Source: Alphaproteobacteria bacterium
Lineage (GTDB): Bacteria > Pseudomonadota > Alphaproteobacteria > Ferrovibrionales > Ferrovibrionaceae
DNA length: 64,000 nucleotides
NCBI GenBank assembly: GCA_017307375.1
Contig: JAFKFH010000013.1
Location: 62,001-126,000, forward strand
Direction: 5' to 3'
The notes beneath the pieces were generated by a model, which saw only the letters and a program-made list of their open reading frames with translations, made no database searches and had not been told where the DNA came from. Positions 34 to 45,554 of this stretch are shown here, piece after piece. Within the stretch, counting starts at the first letter, position 1; every line of letters begins with the position of its first letter. The position numbers and the translations under genes are program-made.

Positions 34-3000
34 ATGGCGGGTGTCGTCTCTGCGCTGCGGCAGCTAGTTCTGGCCGCGGCTTTGGTGGCAGCAGGGAGCA
101 AGACGGCGCTCGCCGCCCTCGTCTATGCAACCAGCATGACGGGGCACACGATCAACGTGATCGATACCGCGACGAACACGATCGTCGCCCAACCCGACGT
201 GGGCGGCATCTCCTATATCGGCGCCGGTGTCCTGCCGAACGGCAACTACGCCTATATCGCGGTGGCAAACCCGAACCAGGTGGCGGTTCTCGATACGCTG
301 ACGCACAGCGTCGTGGCGACGGTCGACACCCTGTCCCAGGCCTGGGGGTTCGCGGCCCTGCCCGATTCGAGCCGCGTGTATGTCAGCGACTACAGCGCGA
401 ACCGCATTCTGGTGATCGATGCCGCGACCAATACCGTGGCGGCAACAATCACGGGCGTCGTTCAGCCCTACGGCGCTGTGGCTGCCCCGGATGGCAGCAA
501 GGTCTACGTCGCCACCTTCTCCGGCACCTCCGTCGTCATCATCGACACCGCGACGAACACCATCGCCGACACGATCGACCTGGGCGGCAGTAGTGCGGTC
601 GCTGTGGACATCTCGCCCGACGGCGGCAAGCTCTATGTGGTCCTGCCCGGGGCGCCGGCGGTGGCGGTCTACGACACGACGACCCTGGCCAGGACCGCCA
701 CGTATACCCTGCCGAGCAGCGCGCGCGGCATCGCGCTTTCCGCCGACGGGGCCAAGGCCTATGTCGCGTTGAATTCGTCGGCCAACGTCGTGGTGTTCGA
801 CACCGCCACCGGCAGCCAGATCACATCGATCACGGTCGGCACGGCGCCGCGCGGCGTCTCGCTCGACGCGACGCGCAGCCGTCTCTACGTGACCAATTCG
901 GGCAGCGGCTCGGTCAGCGTGATCGACGTCACCACCGACACGGTCATCGATACCATCACACCGACACCGGGCGTCAATTCCACGGGCCGGTTCCTGACGC
1001 CCGAGTTGTCGACATTGACCATCGCGACCAGCACCGCAGGCGGCAGCATCAGGGCTGGCCTCGCGACCGGGCCGCAACTGACCTGCACTGCCACCTGCCG
1101 GCGCAACTTCAACGTTTCGGCCACCGTCACGCTGACGGCCGTGCCGCTCGACGGCTACGCCTTCGACCGCTGGGGCGGCGATTGCAGCGGCACCGCGATC
1201 AGCACGACGGTCGACATGGCGACGGCGCCCAGTTGCTCGGCCAGCTTCACCCAATTGCCCCCACCACCGCCGACACCACCGCCACCGCCACCGCCCGTCC
1301 CGGGCTGGTTCAACGAAAACGCCCCGGCCCCGCAACTGGCCACGACCGTCGGACTGGACGGCCGGTTCGTCTCGGCCTCGCTGGCACCGTTCTTCCAGGA
1401 CCCGGCGAGCCTCACCTTCAGCGTCTCGCGGGCCGACGGCGGCGCCCTGCCGGCCGGCATCACCTTCGACCCGGCCACCCTCACCTTCGGCGGCACGGTC
1501 CAGTTGGCCGACCGCCCGGTCCAGACCCTACCAACGGCGGATCCGACCGGTCGATCTGTTCCCAACCCCGTCTATCCGGCCAGCGCACTGATCGAACGCC
1601 TGCCCGTGCTCATAACCGCGCGCGACGGGCGCGGTGCCAGCTACAGCATCACCCAGTATCTCGACCTGCAGACACCGCGCGAACCCGTCGCGATGGCGGC
1701 GCTGTCGGTCAGCCGCGACGGACGGTCGGGCGGCAATGCCATGTCGAGCAAGCCGGCCTTGTCGCATGACGGCGGCCAGATCGTGTTTCAGAGCGCGGCG
1801 ACGAACCTGGTGACGACGGCCTCGCCGGCCGGCACCGACATTCTGCGGTACCACACCCTTGCCGGAACGCTCGATCGGCTCAGCCAGTCTGCGTTTCCGG
1901 GTGGCGGGCCTTCGTCGGGCGCGCTCGGTCCTGCCGTCGACCCGGCGGTCAGCAACGACGGCCAATATGCCGCCTTCACGGCGTCGGGCCAGGGGCTGGT
2001 CGTCGGCCTCGACACCGGCGGCAAGCGGCAGGTCTATCGCATCGGCCTGAAGCATCCCCGTATCGATCTCGACCCGGCGACACCGACGGCCGAACTGGTC
2101 TCGGGCACAGCGGAGGGCGTTGCGGGCAACGATCATTCCGGCAGCCCGACCCTGTCCGCCGACGGCCGCTACGTCGCCTTCGTCAGCCGTGCGACGAACC
2201 TCGGCATCGGGCAGGACGGGACGCCGCGAATCTGGCGAAAGGACCTGTCTACCGGTGCGCTGACCCCAGTCTCGGCGCGGGAGGCAGATGCCGCGGCCGA
2301 TCCTGCCATCACGGCGGACGGACAGGTCATCGCGTTCGCGGCCGGCGGGCAAGTGCATCTCCGCGATCTCGGGACCGGCGCGTTGCGGACGATCGCGCCG
2401 GGAGCCAGCCCGCGGCTGTCGGCCAACGGCGATACCATCGTCTTCGTCGCGGAAAATGCCGTGATCGCCGTGCGGGGCACCAACCGGGACATCGTCGGTG
2501 CCGGCGACCAGCCCAGCGTATCGGACGATGGCCGCTTCGTCGCCTGGCGCACGCCCGAGGGCCAGATCCAGGTCGGCGATATCCTGCGCGGCGTGTCGGC
2601 CCTGGTCAGCCGCACCGGCAACGGCAGTCCCGGTAATGGCAATTCGGCCAACCCGGCGATCGCCGGCGATGGCCGTTCGATCGCCTTCGCCACCAATGCC
2701 CGCGATCTCGTCGGCGGCACGCTGGCGGCGGGGCAGATCATGCTGGCCGGCAATCCGCTGGTCGACCCGGCCGGCACCCGCTACTGGTACGTCGCATCCG
2801 GCGACCGGCAGCCCTTTGCCGTCGAACGGCGCGGCGACCGGGCCTATGTCGCCAGCCTGACCTATGATGCGGCCGGCGCCTCGACCTGGACGGCCGGTTT
2901 CTGCAGCTTCGCCGGCCTCACCTGCACCGGATCGGGCTTTGCCATCGTCTTCGCCGAAACCGGAACCGAGGCGACGCTGCGCTTCGGTCAGACCAGCCTG

Positions 3001-3414
3001 GAGCTGCGCGCCTACCCGCTCGGCGGCAATACCCGGCCGGCGATGCCGGGCCTGCCAGAGGGGGGCTGGTGGTACAATCTCGACGACCCCGGCAGCGCCA
3101 CCGGCTGGTTCCTGGCGATCGCGACACCCGATGCCAACGGCATTCCGGGCGCACCGGTCGCCTTGCTGACCGGGGCGGTCTACGACGCGACCGGCAGGCC
3201 GTTCTGGCTGGCAGGGCAAGGCACGATCGGCGATGGCGGCCTGGCCGCGACGCTGAACCGCTATGCGGGCGGGGCACCGCTCGGGCAAGCTTCGGCGCAG
3301 CCGCCATCCGCCAGTCCGGCCGGCCCGATCGCCCTGACCTGGAGCGGACCGCGCAACGCCACGGCGATCCTGCCGAACGGCCAGCGCGCCAGGCTTGGGC
3401 GCTGGCCGTTCTGA
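34..3414 (+). CDS. Large secreted YVTN/TolB-type beta-propeller protein with C-terminal modules
   Basis: A protein of about 1126 aa with an N-terminal signal peptide ending near the TALAA stretch. Residues ~25-330 carry YVTN-type propeller repeats (recurring VIDTATNTI-like units). Residues ~350-405 form a cysteine-containing beta domain (TCTATC, GGDCSGT), followed by a polyproline linker (~409-423), a putative Ig-like segment, and a second TolB/WD40-like propeller (~560-900; DGRYVAF, DGRSIAF motifs). Two related C-terminal modules start near residues 914 (YWYVAS) and 1009 (GGWWYN) and also occur on two other secreted proteins in this window. I chose ATG 34 over TTG 19; an in-frame stop at 10-12 shows that the gene begins here. 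The architecture suggests an extracellular or periplasmic binding/scaffold role; the ligand is unknown. Confidence 0.85.
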   Translation: MAGVVSALRQLVLAAALVAAGSKTALAALVYATSMTGHTINVIDTATNTIVAQPDVGGISYIGAGVLPNGNYAYIAVANPNQVAVLDTLTHSVVATVDTLSQAWGFAALPDSSRVYVSDYSANRILVIDAATNTVAATITGVVQPYGAVAAPDGSKVYVATFSGTSVVIIDTATNTIADTIDLGGSSAVAVDISPDGGKLYVVLPGAPAVAVYDTTTLARTATYTLPSSARGIALSADGAKAYVALNSSANVVVFDTATGSQITSITVGTAPRGVSLDATRSRLYVTNSGSGSVSVIDVTTDTVIDTITPTPGVNSTGRFLTPELSTLTIATSTAGGSIRAGLATGPQLTCTATCRRNFNVSATVTLTAVPLDGYAFDRWGGDCSGTAISTTVDMATAPSCSASFTQLPPPPPTPPPPPPPVPGWFNENAPAPQLATTVGLDGRFVSASLAPFFQDPASLTFSVSRADGGALPAGITFDPATLTFGGTVQLADRPVQTLPTADPTGRSVPNPVYPASALIERLPVLITARDGRGASYSITQYLDLQTPREPVAMAALSVSRDGRSGGNAMSSKPALSHDGGQIVFQSAATNLVTTASPAGTDILRYHTLAGTLDRLSQSAFPGGGPSSGALGPAVDPAVSNDGQYAAFTASGQGLVVGLDTGGKRQVYRIGLKHPRIDLDPATPTAELVSGTAEGVAGNDHSGSPTLSADGRYVAFVSRATNLGIGQDGTPRIWRKDLSTGALTPVSAREADAAADPAITADGQVIAFAAGGQVHLRDLGTGALRTIAPGASPRLSANGDTIVFVAENAVIAVRGTNRDIVGAGDQPSVSDDGRFVAWRTPEGQIQVGDILRGVSALVSRTGNGSPGNGNSANPAIAGDGRSIAFATNARDLVGGTLAAGQIMLAGNPLVDPAGTRYWYVASGDRQPFAVERRGDRAYVASLTYDAAGASTWTAGFCSFAGLTCTGSGFAIVFAETGTEATLRFGQTSLELRAYPLGGNTRPAMPGLPEGGWWYNLDDPGSATGWFLAIATPDANGIPGAPVALLTGAVYDATGRPFWLAGQGTIGDGGLAATLNRYAGGAPLGQASAQPPSASPAGPIALTWSGPRNATAILPNGQRARLGRWPF

Positions 3415-8824: not shown

Positions 8825-9760
8825 TCAGGGCAACGTCGCCAGCCGCTCGGTCAGCAGCGCGAAGAAACCGTCGGCGTCGATCTCGTTGATGAACCGGACA
8901 TTGGCCGGCCGGTCGGTTACCCGCCACCAGTCGACCACGGTCTGGCCCATGGTCAGCTCGCTGCGCGTCTCGACGCAGAGATTGACCTGCTTGCCCCTGA
9001 ACAGTTCCGGCTTGACCAGGTAGGCGACCGTGCAGGGGTCGTGCAGCGGGGCGCCGGCGCTGCCGTACTTCTCGACGTCGAAGCGTTCGAAGAAGTCGAG
9101 CCAGGCGGCGGCGACCGGGCCGACGCGATTGGGCAGGCGGCGGAAGGCCTCGACCCGCTCGCGCGTCGACAGGGCCTTGTGGGTGACATCGAGCGGCATC
9201 ACCGTGATCGGCAGGCCGGAGCGGAAGACGAGATCGGCGGCCTCCGGATCGACATAGATGTTGAACTCGGCCGCCGGGGTGATGTTGCCGCCCTCGAAAT
9301 AGGCCCCGCCCATCAGCACGATCTCGCGGATCTTGTCCTTGATGTCGGGGGCGCGCATCAAGGCCAGCGCGACGTTGGTCAGCGGCCCGACCGGGCAGAG
9401 GGTCATGCCGTCATCGGGACCGGCGCGCAGCGTCTCGACCAGGAAGTCGACCGCGTGCTGCGCCTGCAGGGGCATCGTCGGCAGCGGCAGGTCGTAGCCG
9501 TCGAGGCCGGTCTTGCCATGAACTTCCTCGGCGGTCACCAGCGGCCGCATCAGCGGCCGGTCGCAACCGGCATAGACCGGGATGTCGGGCCGCCCGGCCA
9601 GTTCGCAGACCGTTCGGGCATTTCGCGTGGTGTGGTGCAGCGGCACGTTGCCGGCGACGACGGTGATGGCGCGCAGGTCGAGTTCGGGCGAGGCCAGCGC
9701 CAGCAGGATGGCGAAGGCATCGTCCTGCCCGGGATCGGTATCGATGATGATGGGGCGCAA
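8825..9760 (-). CDS. Inosine-uridine-preferring type nucleoside hydrolase
   Basis: 311 aa. The N-terminal DTDPGQDDAFAIL is the calcium-binding aspartate cluster of the IunH/nucleoside hydrolase fold, and further signatures such as LMGGAY and GNITPAAEFNIYVDPEAA follow. The enzyme cleaves the N-glycosidic bond of nucleosides to base plus ribose. It lies downstream of the glutamate-type ABC genes on the same strand (39 nt after the ATPase gene) and faces the ribokinase. Purine versus pyrimidine preference is not decidable here. Confidence 0.92.
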   Translation of the reverse strand: MRPIIIDTDPGQDDAFAILLALASPELDLRAITVVAGNVPLHHTTRNARTVCELAGRPDIPVYAGCDRPLMRPLVTAEEVHGKTGLDGYDLPLPTMPLQAQHAVDFLVETLRAGPDDGMTLCPVGPLTNVALALMRAPDIKDKIREIVLMGGAYFEGGNITPAAEFNIYVDPEAADLVFRSGLPITVMPLDVTHKALSTRERVEAFRRLPNRVGPVAAAWLDFFERFDVEKYGSAGAPLHDPCTVAYLVKPELFRGKQVNLCVETRSELTMGQTVVDWWRVTDRPANVRFINEIDADGFFALLTERLATLP

Positions 9761-9799
9761 GTCGGCTACTCCGTTGGAATCGGCCGGAGTCTACCCGGA

Positions 9800-10543
9800 T
9801 CAATGGGAGGCGACCAGCACCCGCGACAGGAAGGTCTGCGCGCGTTCCGAGCGCGGCTTGCCGAAGAATTCGGCCTTCGGCGCATCCTCGACGATCTCAC
9901 CCTGGTCCATGAACACGACCCGGTGGGCGACCGAGCGGGCGAAGCCCATCTCGTGGGTCACGACCATCATCGTCATGCCCTCGCGCGCCAGGTCGACCAT
10001 CACGTCGAGCACTTCCTGGATCATCTCGGGGTCGAGCGCCGAGGTCGGCTCGTCGAACAGCATGGCGATCGGATCCATCGCCAGGGCGCGCGCGATCGCC
10101 ACGCGCTGCTGCTGGCCGCCGGAAAGCTGCCCGGGGAATTTCCGCGCGTGGGCCTTCAGGCCGACGCGGTCGAGCAACGCCATCGCCTTGGCCACCGCCT
10201 GGTCGCGGCTGCGGCCCAACGCCTTCATCTGCGCCAGGCACAGGTTGTCGGTGACCGACAGATGCGGGAACAGCTCGAAATGCTGGAAGACCATGCCGAC
10301 GCGGGCGCGCAGCTTCGGCAGGTTGGTTTCCGGCGCGTCGACACGGATGCCGTCGACGGTGATGGTGCCCTGGTCGATCTTCTCCAGCCCGTTGACGCAT
10401 TTGATCAGCGTCGACTTGCCGGACCCGGACGGGCCGCAGACGACGACGACCTCGCCCTTGGCAACGTCGAGGGTGCAATCCTTCAGCACCTGGAAGGTCG
10501 GATTGTACCATTTGCTGACATGGGCGATTTCGATCATCGGCAT
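9800..10543 (-). CDS. gltL: Glutamate/aspartate-type ABC transporter ATP-binding protein
   Basis: 247 aa polar-amino-acid ABC ATPase. Walker A is GPSGSGKST, the signature is [15 protein letters not shown], and Walker B is [13 protein letters not shown]. The domain is complete and without fusion. ATG 10543 follows the permease stop by 17 nt; an in-frame ATG at 10537 is an alternative. It is the last of four consecutive genes (binding protein, two permeases, ATPase) behind a LysR gene. The four-gene arrangement matches gltIJKL systems; coupling to dgcNA suggests D- and/or L-glutamate as substrate. Confidence 0.93.
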
Positions 10544-18252: not shown

Positions 18253-19209
18253 ATGCGACTGGTCATTCTGCTTCTTGCCGCGCTCACCGCGACGTGGCTC
18301 GCGGCGCCGGCATCGGCATCGGCGGGTAGTGTACGTTGCCAAGGTGATTCGAATAACGGCAGCAGTTGCCCTTGCAAGATCGAGCCAAACGGCAGCTGCC
18401 AAGGCACAACGATATGGCACCTCTCTGCTACTGATTTTTCAGTTCAGGGAATAAATCTGTCGAAGTCCAAGATTAATTCACTTGAACTCAGGCATGTCGA
18501 TCTGATCGGCGCCAATTTGAGCGAGATATCGACCAAATCTGGCCTTTTCGATAGCGTAGACATGATCCAAGCCAACCTTTCTAACGCCAGTCTGGAGCGT
18601 GCTAAATTTTGGCGAGCCAAACTTGGAGGCGCCAATTTCAGCAATAGTGACTTGAGAGGCGCCGAATTCAACGAAAGCCGCCTCAACAGCACGTCCTTTG
18701 CGGGGGCAGATCTTCGGCAAGCCATTTTCAGAAATCCCATATTCAGGCAGACAGATTTCACCGGTGCGACCTGGGTGGACGGGTCCAAATGCGGCCCAGG
18801 GTCGATTGATCGCTGCATCCCGGTCACGGTGACCGGGACGCGCAGCGGCATGGCGCTGCCTTCGCCCGGTTTGCCGACGATCGTGCCCCATGCGGGTATG
18901 TGGCGCACGCCGGGCGGCAGCGAAGGCTATGTCTTGGAACCGGCCATGGCCGGGGCACTTCGCGTGATCGTGGTGGGATTCGATGCCGCCGGGATTCCTA
19001 CCTGGACGATGGCCGAAGGCACGATCGGCCCGGACAACCTGTTCACGGCGGCGTTGCGCCGCTGCACCGCCGGCACGACGCCAGCAGGCACCAAGGACTG
19101 CACCGGCGAACTGGGCCAGATCTCGCTTCAATTCGCAGACAACGACTCGGCAACGCTGTTGGCACCGGGGGCGGCGCCCGTCAGCATCGCGCCGGCGCCC
19201 ATCCCTTGA
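18253..19209 (+). CDS. Secreted pentapeptide-repeat protein with a shared C-terminal module
   Basis: 318 aa with a signal peptide (MRLVILLLAALTATWLAAPASASA). Residues ~70-175 are pentapeptide repeats of the A(N/D)LSX type (GANLSE, QANLSNA, GANFSNS, DLRGAEF, FAGADLRQA), expected to form a right-handed quadrilateral beta-helix. Residues ~210-318 match the GW..GY.LE...FD..G.PTW..A.G module seen on two other secreted proteins here. The repeat part (about 18330-18780) is clearly lower in GC than its surroundings, whereas the C-terminal module has the host composition; this suggests a composite or partly acquired gene. No function is assignable. Confidence 0.8.
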   Translation: MRLVILLLAALTATWLAAPASASAGSVRCQGDSNNGSSCPCKIEPNGSCQGTTIWHLSATDFSVQGINLSKSKINSLELRHVDLIGANLSEISTKSGLFDSVDMIQANLSNASLERAKFWRAKLGGANFSNSDLRGAEFNESRLNSTSFAGADLRQAIFRNPIFRQTDFTGATWVDGSKCGPGSIDRCIPVTVTGTRSGMALPSPGLPTIVPHAGMWRTPGGSEGYVLEPAMAGALRVIVVGFDAAGIPTWTMAEGTIGPDNLFTAALRRCTAGTTPAGTKDCTGELGQISLQFADNDSATLLAPGAAPVSIAPAPIP

Positions 19210-44018: not shown

Positions 44019-45554
44019 TCAGTATAGCGTGAAGCGCGCCAGGCTGATCGCCCGACCATCGGGCAGCATCAGCGTCGCGGTGAACGGGTTGGTGAAGACC
44101 AGGGCGACCGACTGGCCGGTCGACGCGCAAGTCGGCACATGGGCGGCATCGCTGACCGGCTGGCCGCCGGCACAGAGGTTGAGCGGCGACTGGATCGTCA
44201 CCCCGCCCGCCGCATTCGCCACGGCCTGGGCCGAAAAATAGTACCAGACCGGCTGCCCGTCGGCGCGGTACATGAAGCCCCCGAAGAAGATCTGGTCGCG
44301 CTGGGCCTCGATGAAATAGCCGCGACCGCCTTCGGCCGCGTTCCAGTACCAGCCGGTTTCGGGCATGCCGGACGCGGGTCCCGCCGCCACGCCGCCGGCG
44401 GCGATGTCGTAGCGGACGAGGTTCGCGACCTGGCCGTTCAGGCTCATCACCGCCGTCGTGTCGGAGGTGAAGGTGATGGCGATGCTGCCGACGGTTCCGA
44501 CCATCACCGGCGCCGCATAGGGGCCGGTCAAGGTCTGGCCGCCGGCGAATTTCTGCAGCGTGCCGGCATAGGTCGTCGCGGAATTCATCGAGCCCGAAGA
44601 GGTGTACCACACCGCCGATCCGTCGGTATCGTAGAGATAGCCGGCGAAATAGAGCCGGCCTGAGCGGAACTCGATCGAATATCCCCGCGCCGGCTGGTCG
44701 GCGACGTACCACCAGCCCGATTGCAGGGTGGTCGACAGCAGCGCGGCCGGCACGTAGGACCGTACCCAGTCGTTGTAGCGCGACACGCGCGTGTAGACAC
44801 CGGGATAGTCCGCCTCGGCACAGCCGATCCCGAAGCTGGTGATGCCGACCTGGATGACGCCACCGGCATGGTTGGAGGCAAACAGCGGCCCGCCGGAATC
44901 GCCCTGGCAGGTATCCTTGCCCGGCGAGGCGGCGCAGATCATGTTGGCGGTGATGTCGCCGCCATAGGCCATGTTGCAGCTCGACTGCGAGGTGACCGTC
45001 AGGTCGACCTGCTGCAGCCTGGAGGGATAGTTGGCCGTGCCGGTCGCGTTGGTATTGCCCCAGCCCGTCGCGGTGACCACCTGCCCCGTGCCGGCCCAGG
45101 CGGCATCGGTCGCAGGGGTCGCCAGCATGACCGGATTGTTGATCGTGACCGACTGGCTCAGTTGCAGCAGCGCGATGTCGTTGTCATCGAGGGTCGGGTT
45201 GTAGGAGGGGTGGGTGATGAGCCGGGTCACGCTGCGGCGCTGGCCCGAACCGTCACTGTTGTTGTCGGTGCCGGCCACCACCGTCAGGTCGCTGGCGCGT
45301 AGGACCAGTTGGCCCCGGCTGTTGTAGAAGCAATGCGACGCCGTCATGACCCAGTCGGCCGACAGGAGCGTGCCGCCGCAGAAGTGGCTCGACGGCGAGC
45401 CATACTGGATAGAGACCTGCACCGGCCAGCGCCGTTCGGAAACGGTGACGCCACCGATGATCTTTGCGGAGTCGACCGCCTGCGCGGCATGACCGCCCAG
45501 GAAAATGACGGCCGCCAGCCCGATGGCCAGCCACCGCGACAACACCTGCACCAT
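44019..45554 (-). CDS. Secreted trypsin-like serine protease with two C-terminal modules
   Basis: 511 aa from ATG 45554, giving a signal peptide that ends near HAAQA. KIIGG at 31-35 is the zymogen activation site. The triad is H74 (TASHC), D126 (DNDIALL) and S220 (GDSGGP), and D214 six residues before the serine predicts trypsin-like Arg/Lys specificity. Six cysteines fit disulfides. Residues ~285-511 hold two copies of the GWWY..GY.IE...Y..DG..VWY module, also on two other secreted proteins here. The next gene encodes a glycosyltransferase. Confidence 0.92.
   Translation of the reverse strand: MVQVLSRWLAIGLAAVIFLGGHAAQAVDSAKIIGGVTVSERRWPVQVSIQYGSPSSHFCGGTLLSADWVMTASHCFYNSRGQLVLRASDLTVVAGTDNNSDGSGQRRSVTRLITHPSYNPTLDDNDIALLQLSQSVTINNPVMLATPATDAAWAGTGQVVTATGWGNTNATGTANYPSRLQQVDLTVTSQSSCNMAYGGDITANMICAASPGKDTCQGDSGGPLFASNHAGGVIQVGITSFGIGCAEADYPGVYTRVSRYNDWVRSYVPAALLSTTLQSGWWYVADQPARGYSIEFRSGRLYFAGYLYDTDGSAVWYTSSGSMNSATTYAGTLQKFAGGQTLTGPYAAPVMVGTVGSIAITFTSDTTAVMSLNGQVANLVRYDIAAGGVAAGPASGMPETGWYWNAAEGGRGYFIEAQRDQIFFGGFMYRADGQPVWYYFSAQAVANAAGGVTIQSPLNLCAGGQPVSDAAHVPTCASTGQSVALVFTNPFTATLMLPDGRAISLARFTLY

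Follow-up and report, generated by a model that had tools for sequence, protein, structure and literature searches.

The window (the whole 64,000-nucleotide stretch of DNA analysed here, which lies within contig G000:C29 of the 7.54-Mb, 41-contig source assembly G000) encodes three exported proteins that together carry five copies of a small module. As listed in Table 1, these are a propeller protein with YVTN/YncE-like propeller, InlB B-repeat-like and PD40 propeller domains, a pentapeptide-repeat protein with one module, and a trypsin-like serine protease that keeps the His, Asp and Ser motifs (TASHC, DNDIALL and GDSGGP). To avoid circularity, the profile used to establish homology was trained on 105 modules from other organisms only and was searched against all 525 window ORFs of 60 aa or more. 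Since this profile recovered all five window copies, with the best unrelated window ORF at E 1.1 and no match with E < 0.1 in 20 shuffles of all 525 ORFs, the five copies are confirmed, at the level of sequence, as one homologous domain family. The first propeller copy is the weakest of the five; it is shortened, covers only part of the profile and is weak on its own. The original prediction, that copies common to the propeller, trypsin and pentapeptide proteins occur in the window, had their positions right, and the profile search that it proposed recovered the module family without any unrelated fold.

Table 1. Carrier genes and barrel modules in the window; positions are counted from its first base.
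Feature	Position	Strand	Evidence
Exported propeller protein, module pair at C-terminus	34..3414	+	ORF and domain matches; start and signal-peptide-like N-terminus
Propeller protein, barrel module 1 (short and divergent)	2773..3021	+	Independent profile E 5.7e-4; AF2 strands E7-11 to E78-84
Propeller protein, barrel module 2 (up to stop codon)	3058..3411	+	Independent profile E 6.9e-12; AF2 strands E102-106 to E209-214
Exported pentapeptide-repeat protein, one C-terminal module	18253..19209	+	Pfam Pentapeptide 7e-26
Pentapeptide protein, single barrel module	18889..19203	+	Independent profile E 1.5e-9
Exported trypsin-like serine protease with module pair	44019..45554	-	Pfam Trypsin 4e-65
Trypsin, barrel module 1	44403..44723	-	Independent profile E 4.1e-31; AF2 pLDDT 93
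Trypsin, barrel module 2 (up to stop codon)	44022..44360	-	Independent profile E 3.6e-30; AF2 pLDDT 93

The trypsin and propeller pairs were modelled with AF2, with an alignment of natural relatives as input. The trypsin pair reached a pLDDT of 93.2 and a pTM of 0.89, and the propeller pair a pLDDT of 87.0 and a pTM of 0.83. Every modelled module has eight strands, apart from the short propeller copy with seven to eight, and each is confidently predicted to form an eight-stranded antiparallel up-and-down barrel. Structure prediction, which had been put forward as a check on the family, did not refute it: the two pairs agreed in their eight-strand pattern and in their PDB neighbours. Foldseek searches of the PDB and BFVD returned no match at E 1e-3 or better. 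By VIA-align, de novo barrels lay nearest to both pairs (best Z 9.2 for the trypsin pair and 10.8 for the propeller pair, the latter for its module 2 against 6czj with an rmsd of 2.7 over 96 aligned residues). Other neighbours were the D-aminopeptidase 1ei5 (trypsin Z 7.9 over 97 residues, propeller Z 10.4 over 74), the quinohemoprotein amine dehydrogenase 1jju (7.8 and 9.4, respectively), nitrophorins (7.6 and 8.0) and fHbp (7.3 and 7.6), with fHbp and TbpB together spanning 7.0-7.6. Such Z values demonstrate that the strands are arranged as a barrel but not that the proteins are related.

In the alignment, both modules have a nearly invariant Trp on strand 1 and Arg on the last strand; the invariant residues of the pair comprise GW-x-W, G-R-G, Glu/Gln, Tyr and Trp. 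As residue types they recall the calycin latch, in which a Trp on strand 1 and an Arg or Lys on the last strand make a cation-pi contact over a 3-10 helix (PMC2954199). Together with the predicted eight-stranded up-and-down barrel, which aligns with calycins and lipocalins (nitrophorins 1pm1 and 2asn; NE1406) at Z 7-8, these residues would suit a carrier that holds a hydrophobic small molecule inside each barrel, as nitrophorins and other lipocalins do. We nevertheless consider a carrier role very unlikely, because Z values of 7-8 are background level for this method, a length of about 105 residues is short by lipocalin standards, and the modules have a fixed Gly-Trp-x-Trp spacing and not the Gly-x-Trp of lipocalins. 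The modules also differ from lipocalins in forming a tandem-pair add-on and in having no sequence match to them.

Whether the window proteins, the consensus or the relatives were searched, no curated Pfam (2025) or NCBIfam (June 2026) model matched the module at its cut-off; a PDB sequence search for a known family gave nothing above chance; and a full-text literature search, with most subscription journals outside its coverage, found no paper on the domain. The tandem-barrel add-on is thus an uncatalogued domain of exported proteins, real and widespread, and because it has no Pfam or NCBIfam entry its carriers are currently annotated by their partner domain only or as hypothetical. A profile for the twin barrel would annotate many exported proteins, and make it testable which ligand or destination proteases, glycosidases and propellers have in common.

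The source genome holds 38 ORF records with the module and about 65-67 modules (iterated profile search, fetched regions); the records include one double entry and several ORFs cut by contig ends, and the genome has about 35-37 frames with the module. The original description of a module shared by three unrelated proteins therefore stands for the window but not for the genome. Two modules are present in 25 of the 28 complete source-genome ORFs. Partner domains, assigned with Pfam, include several trypsins, a subtilase (S8), an M12B reprolysin-like domain, M23, GH8, GH5 and a GH64-like domain, an intradiol-dioxygenase-like domain, pentapeptide repeats and several propeller types; the wider census of attached partners also contains GH26, peptidase M30, RCC1, and SBBP and DUF5122 propellers, and 6 of the 25 source-genome proteins scanned have no Pfam match at all. 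A second pentapeptide-repeat protein (L013:2271-3428, G000:C38) has exactly one module, like that of the window, and the single-module form therefore goes with the pentapeptide partner. The propeller gene has a tandem paralogue directly upstream of the window (L028:967-4446, G000:C29), which likewise encodes a module pair. It stops about 55 bases short of window base 1, and over 1.7 kb the two genes are about 73% identical in DNA. About ten module copies lie at contig ends (L025, L026, L030, L031 and L034-L037), with DNA identities of 96% between L030 and L031 and 98% between L034 and L036; near-identical module copies therefore probably broke the source assembly.

Because 138 of the 140 modules in 70 tandem pairs have their best cross-protein match at the same position, the pair travels as a unit, its first and second barrels being old and distinct lines that move together. 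In the module tree, which was built from 107 columns and in which the bootstrap is unsettled, the second modules of the GH8, S1-like and M12B proteins and of one unassigned source-genome protein form one clade (support 100/93), and the first modules of the same four proteins form two starred pairs (100/96 and 99/82). Judged by these shared clades, the pair is swapped between unrelated catalytic domains, as had been proposed for an add-on of unrelated exported proteins. The usual pairing of two distinct barrels, and the pTM of 0.89 for the trypsin pair, suggest a fixed barrel-barrel interface and might be taken to indicate an oligomerisation or stabilising domain, whose barrels would pack together or on the passenger and bind no external ligand. 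A precedent is Pab87, a serine peptidase in which a C-terminal lipocalin barrel drives assembly of an octamer (PMC2651629). The lipocalin-like barrels of Pab87/CubicO proteins and of the O. anthropi D-aminopeptidase (1ei5) likewise lie C-terminal to a serine peptidase; however, they occur on penicillin-binding-type (S12) peptidases whereas the twin barrel occurs on many unrelated folds, and no sequence similarity between them was found. With partners as unlike one another as GH8, pentapeptide and propeller domains, and with both termini used, a shared passenger interface is unlikely, and we regard the oligomerisation role as distinctly improbable.

A crude heuristic detected signal-peptide-like N-termini in 65 of 83 complete module ORFs compared to 48 of 470 controls. 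The module was originally described as C-terminal, which holds for the source genome, where 24 of the 28 complete ORFs have no more than 5 residues after the last module, but not as a general rule. Of 55 pairs in other organisms, 25 are C-terminal and 27 are followed by more than 50 residues, and in many Burkholderiales the pair comes immediately after the signal peptide, often with a lipobox, and precedes the passenger. A lipobox occurs in 10 of 31 proteins with an N-terminal or internal pair versus 3 of 63 with a C-terminal pair, a contrast that is confounded by taxonomy; a lipid anchor and a C-terminal pair therefore seldom coexist. Loci with an N-terminal or internal pair, often predicted lipoproteins, are L063, L066, L082, L084, L087, L089-L092 and L095. 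Of 179 modules, 139 have no cysteine and 31 have two. This predominance of none or two suits an oxidising compartment and suggests an optional disulphide. This pattern was recorded at three of the window copies (2773-3021, 18889-19203 and 44022-44360).

The C-terminal placement in the source genome is what would be expected if the pair were an export signal, that is, if an outer-membrane machine (Slam/T11SS, as with TbpB and fHbp, or T2SS) recognised it and the passenger crossed the outer membrane. The cargo of T11SS cluster 1 is unified by variable N-termini and a C-terminal eight-stranded barrel (PMC12282271), and fHbp and TbpB resemble the carriers in their barrel, variable N-terminal passenger and export; GspD- and GspE-like genes are also present in the source genome, and GspD in the Beta- and Gammaproteobacteria tested. 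However, Z values near 7 may reflect a common arrangement only, the carriers differ from T11SS cargo in their twin barrels and, in many organisms, their N-terminal placement, and the modules have no sequence match to Pfam models of T11SS cargo barrels. SlipAM/DUF560 (PF04575, Slam) was found neither in the source genome nor in 8 of 10 other carriers, with weak matches in G260 and G726, and T11SS export, an idea prompted by the fHbp and TbpB neighbours, was dropped as the leading explanation. GspD and GspE were not detected in the draft genomes G463, G500, G657 and G726, four of the five other alphaproteobacterial carriers examined, and over the genomes tested these T2SS markers showed no consistent association with the module. 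In Burkholderiales the pair often follows the signal peptide with the passenger after it, and about half of the pairs outside the source genome are not C-terminal; a strict C-terminal export signal can therefore not account for every member. Overall, an export-signal role is unlikely, and the secretion-related role first suggested is not supported as a general rule.

Carbohydrate-binding and other substrate-binding add-ons keep enzymes near their site of action. The twin barrel resembles carbohydrate-binding accessory modules in being mobile, position-independent and present on many exported hydrolases, but differs in that no such Pfam family matches it. We consider that there is about an even chance that the twin barrel is a position-independent accessory domain that serves in binding or tethering outside the cytoplasm. 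The carrier protein would first be exported by Sec; the twin barrel would then bind a common ligand outside the cytoplasm, possibly a polysaccharide, on the cell surface or extracellular, or else the polymer under degradation, and by analogy with such add-ons this binding may hold the attached hydrolase or propeller close to where it acts. Binding or tethering fits because most partners either work on extracellular polymers or serve as scaffolds, although pentapeptide, RCC1 and propeller partners, which have no obvious polymer substrate, fit less directly. Surface attachment, as a putative function, is favoured. The stronger proposal that the twin barrel serves as a dedicated tag for surface display, by which dozens of unrelated exported enzymes would be fixed to one common polymer or receptor at the surface, seems to us rather doubtful; if true, the tag would be a lineage-expanded system at the outer membrane, comparable to display by cell-wall binding or by cohesin and dockerin.

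A profile built from the source genome found the module in none of 17 same-family genomes and in none of 43 others from the class, and vertical inheritance from family or class was therefore not seen. Matches were found in 6 of 398 genomes drawn from the phylum and in 6 of 385 drawn from the class, the source genome being included in each case. A scan of named genomes with a six-row alignment of the pair returned 52 loci in Lysobacterales, Burkholderiales and their kin (Undibacterium, Andreprevotia, Rhodoferax and Curvibacter), alphaproteobacterial MAGs, Gemmatimonadota and Acidobacteriota; the relatives in Lysobacterales agree with the similar repeats in Xanthomonadaceae secreted proteins that had been mentioned at the outset. 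The patchy occurrence in Alpha-, Beta- and Gammaproteobacteria, Acidobacteriota and Gemmatimonadota, together with the high copy number in some carriers, suggests horizontal spread or repeated loss. A protein of G726, a genome of the same class, matches a protein of an alphaproteobacterial MAG in length and module positions (L106 and L071, respectively), which makes Alphaproteobacteria the probable class of the source genome. Plasmid and phage collections contained almost no modules. One entry labelled as a 209-kb cyanophage (PP438435.1, Dolichospermum phage Dfl-JY45) encodes two proteins with one module each (L111:7941-8915 and 8978-9871); both proteins bear signal peptides and their modules resemble those of Lysobacterales, and the sequence is either phage-borne or mislabelled bacterial DNA.
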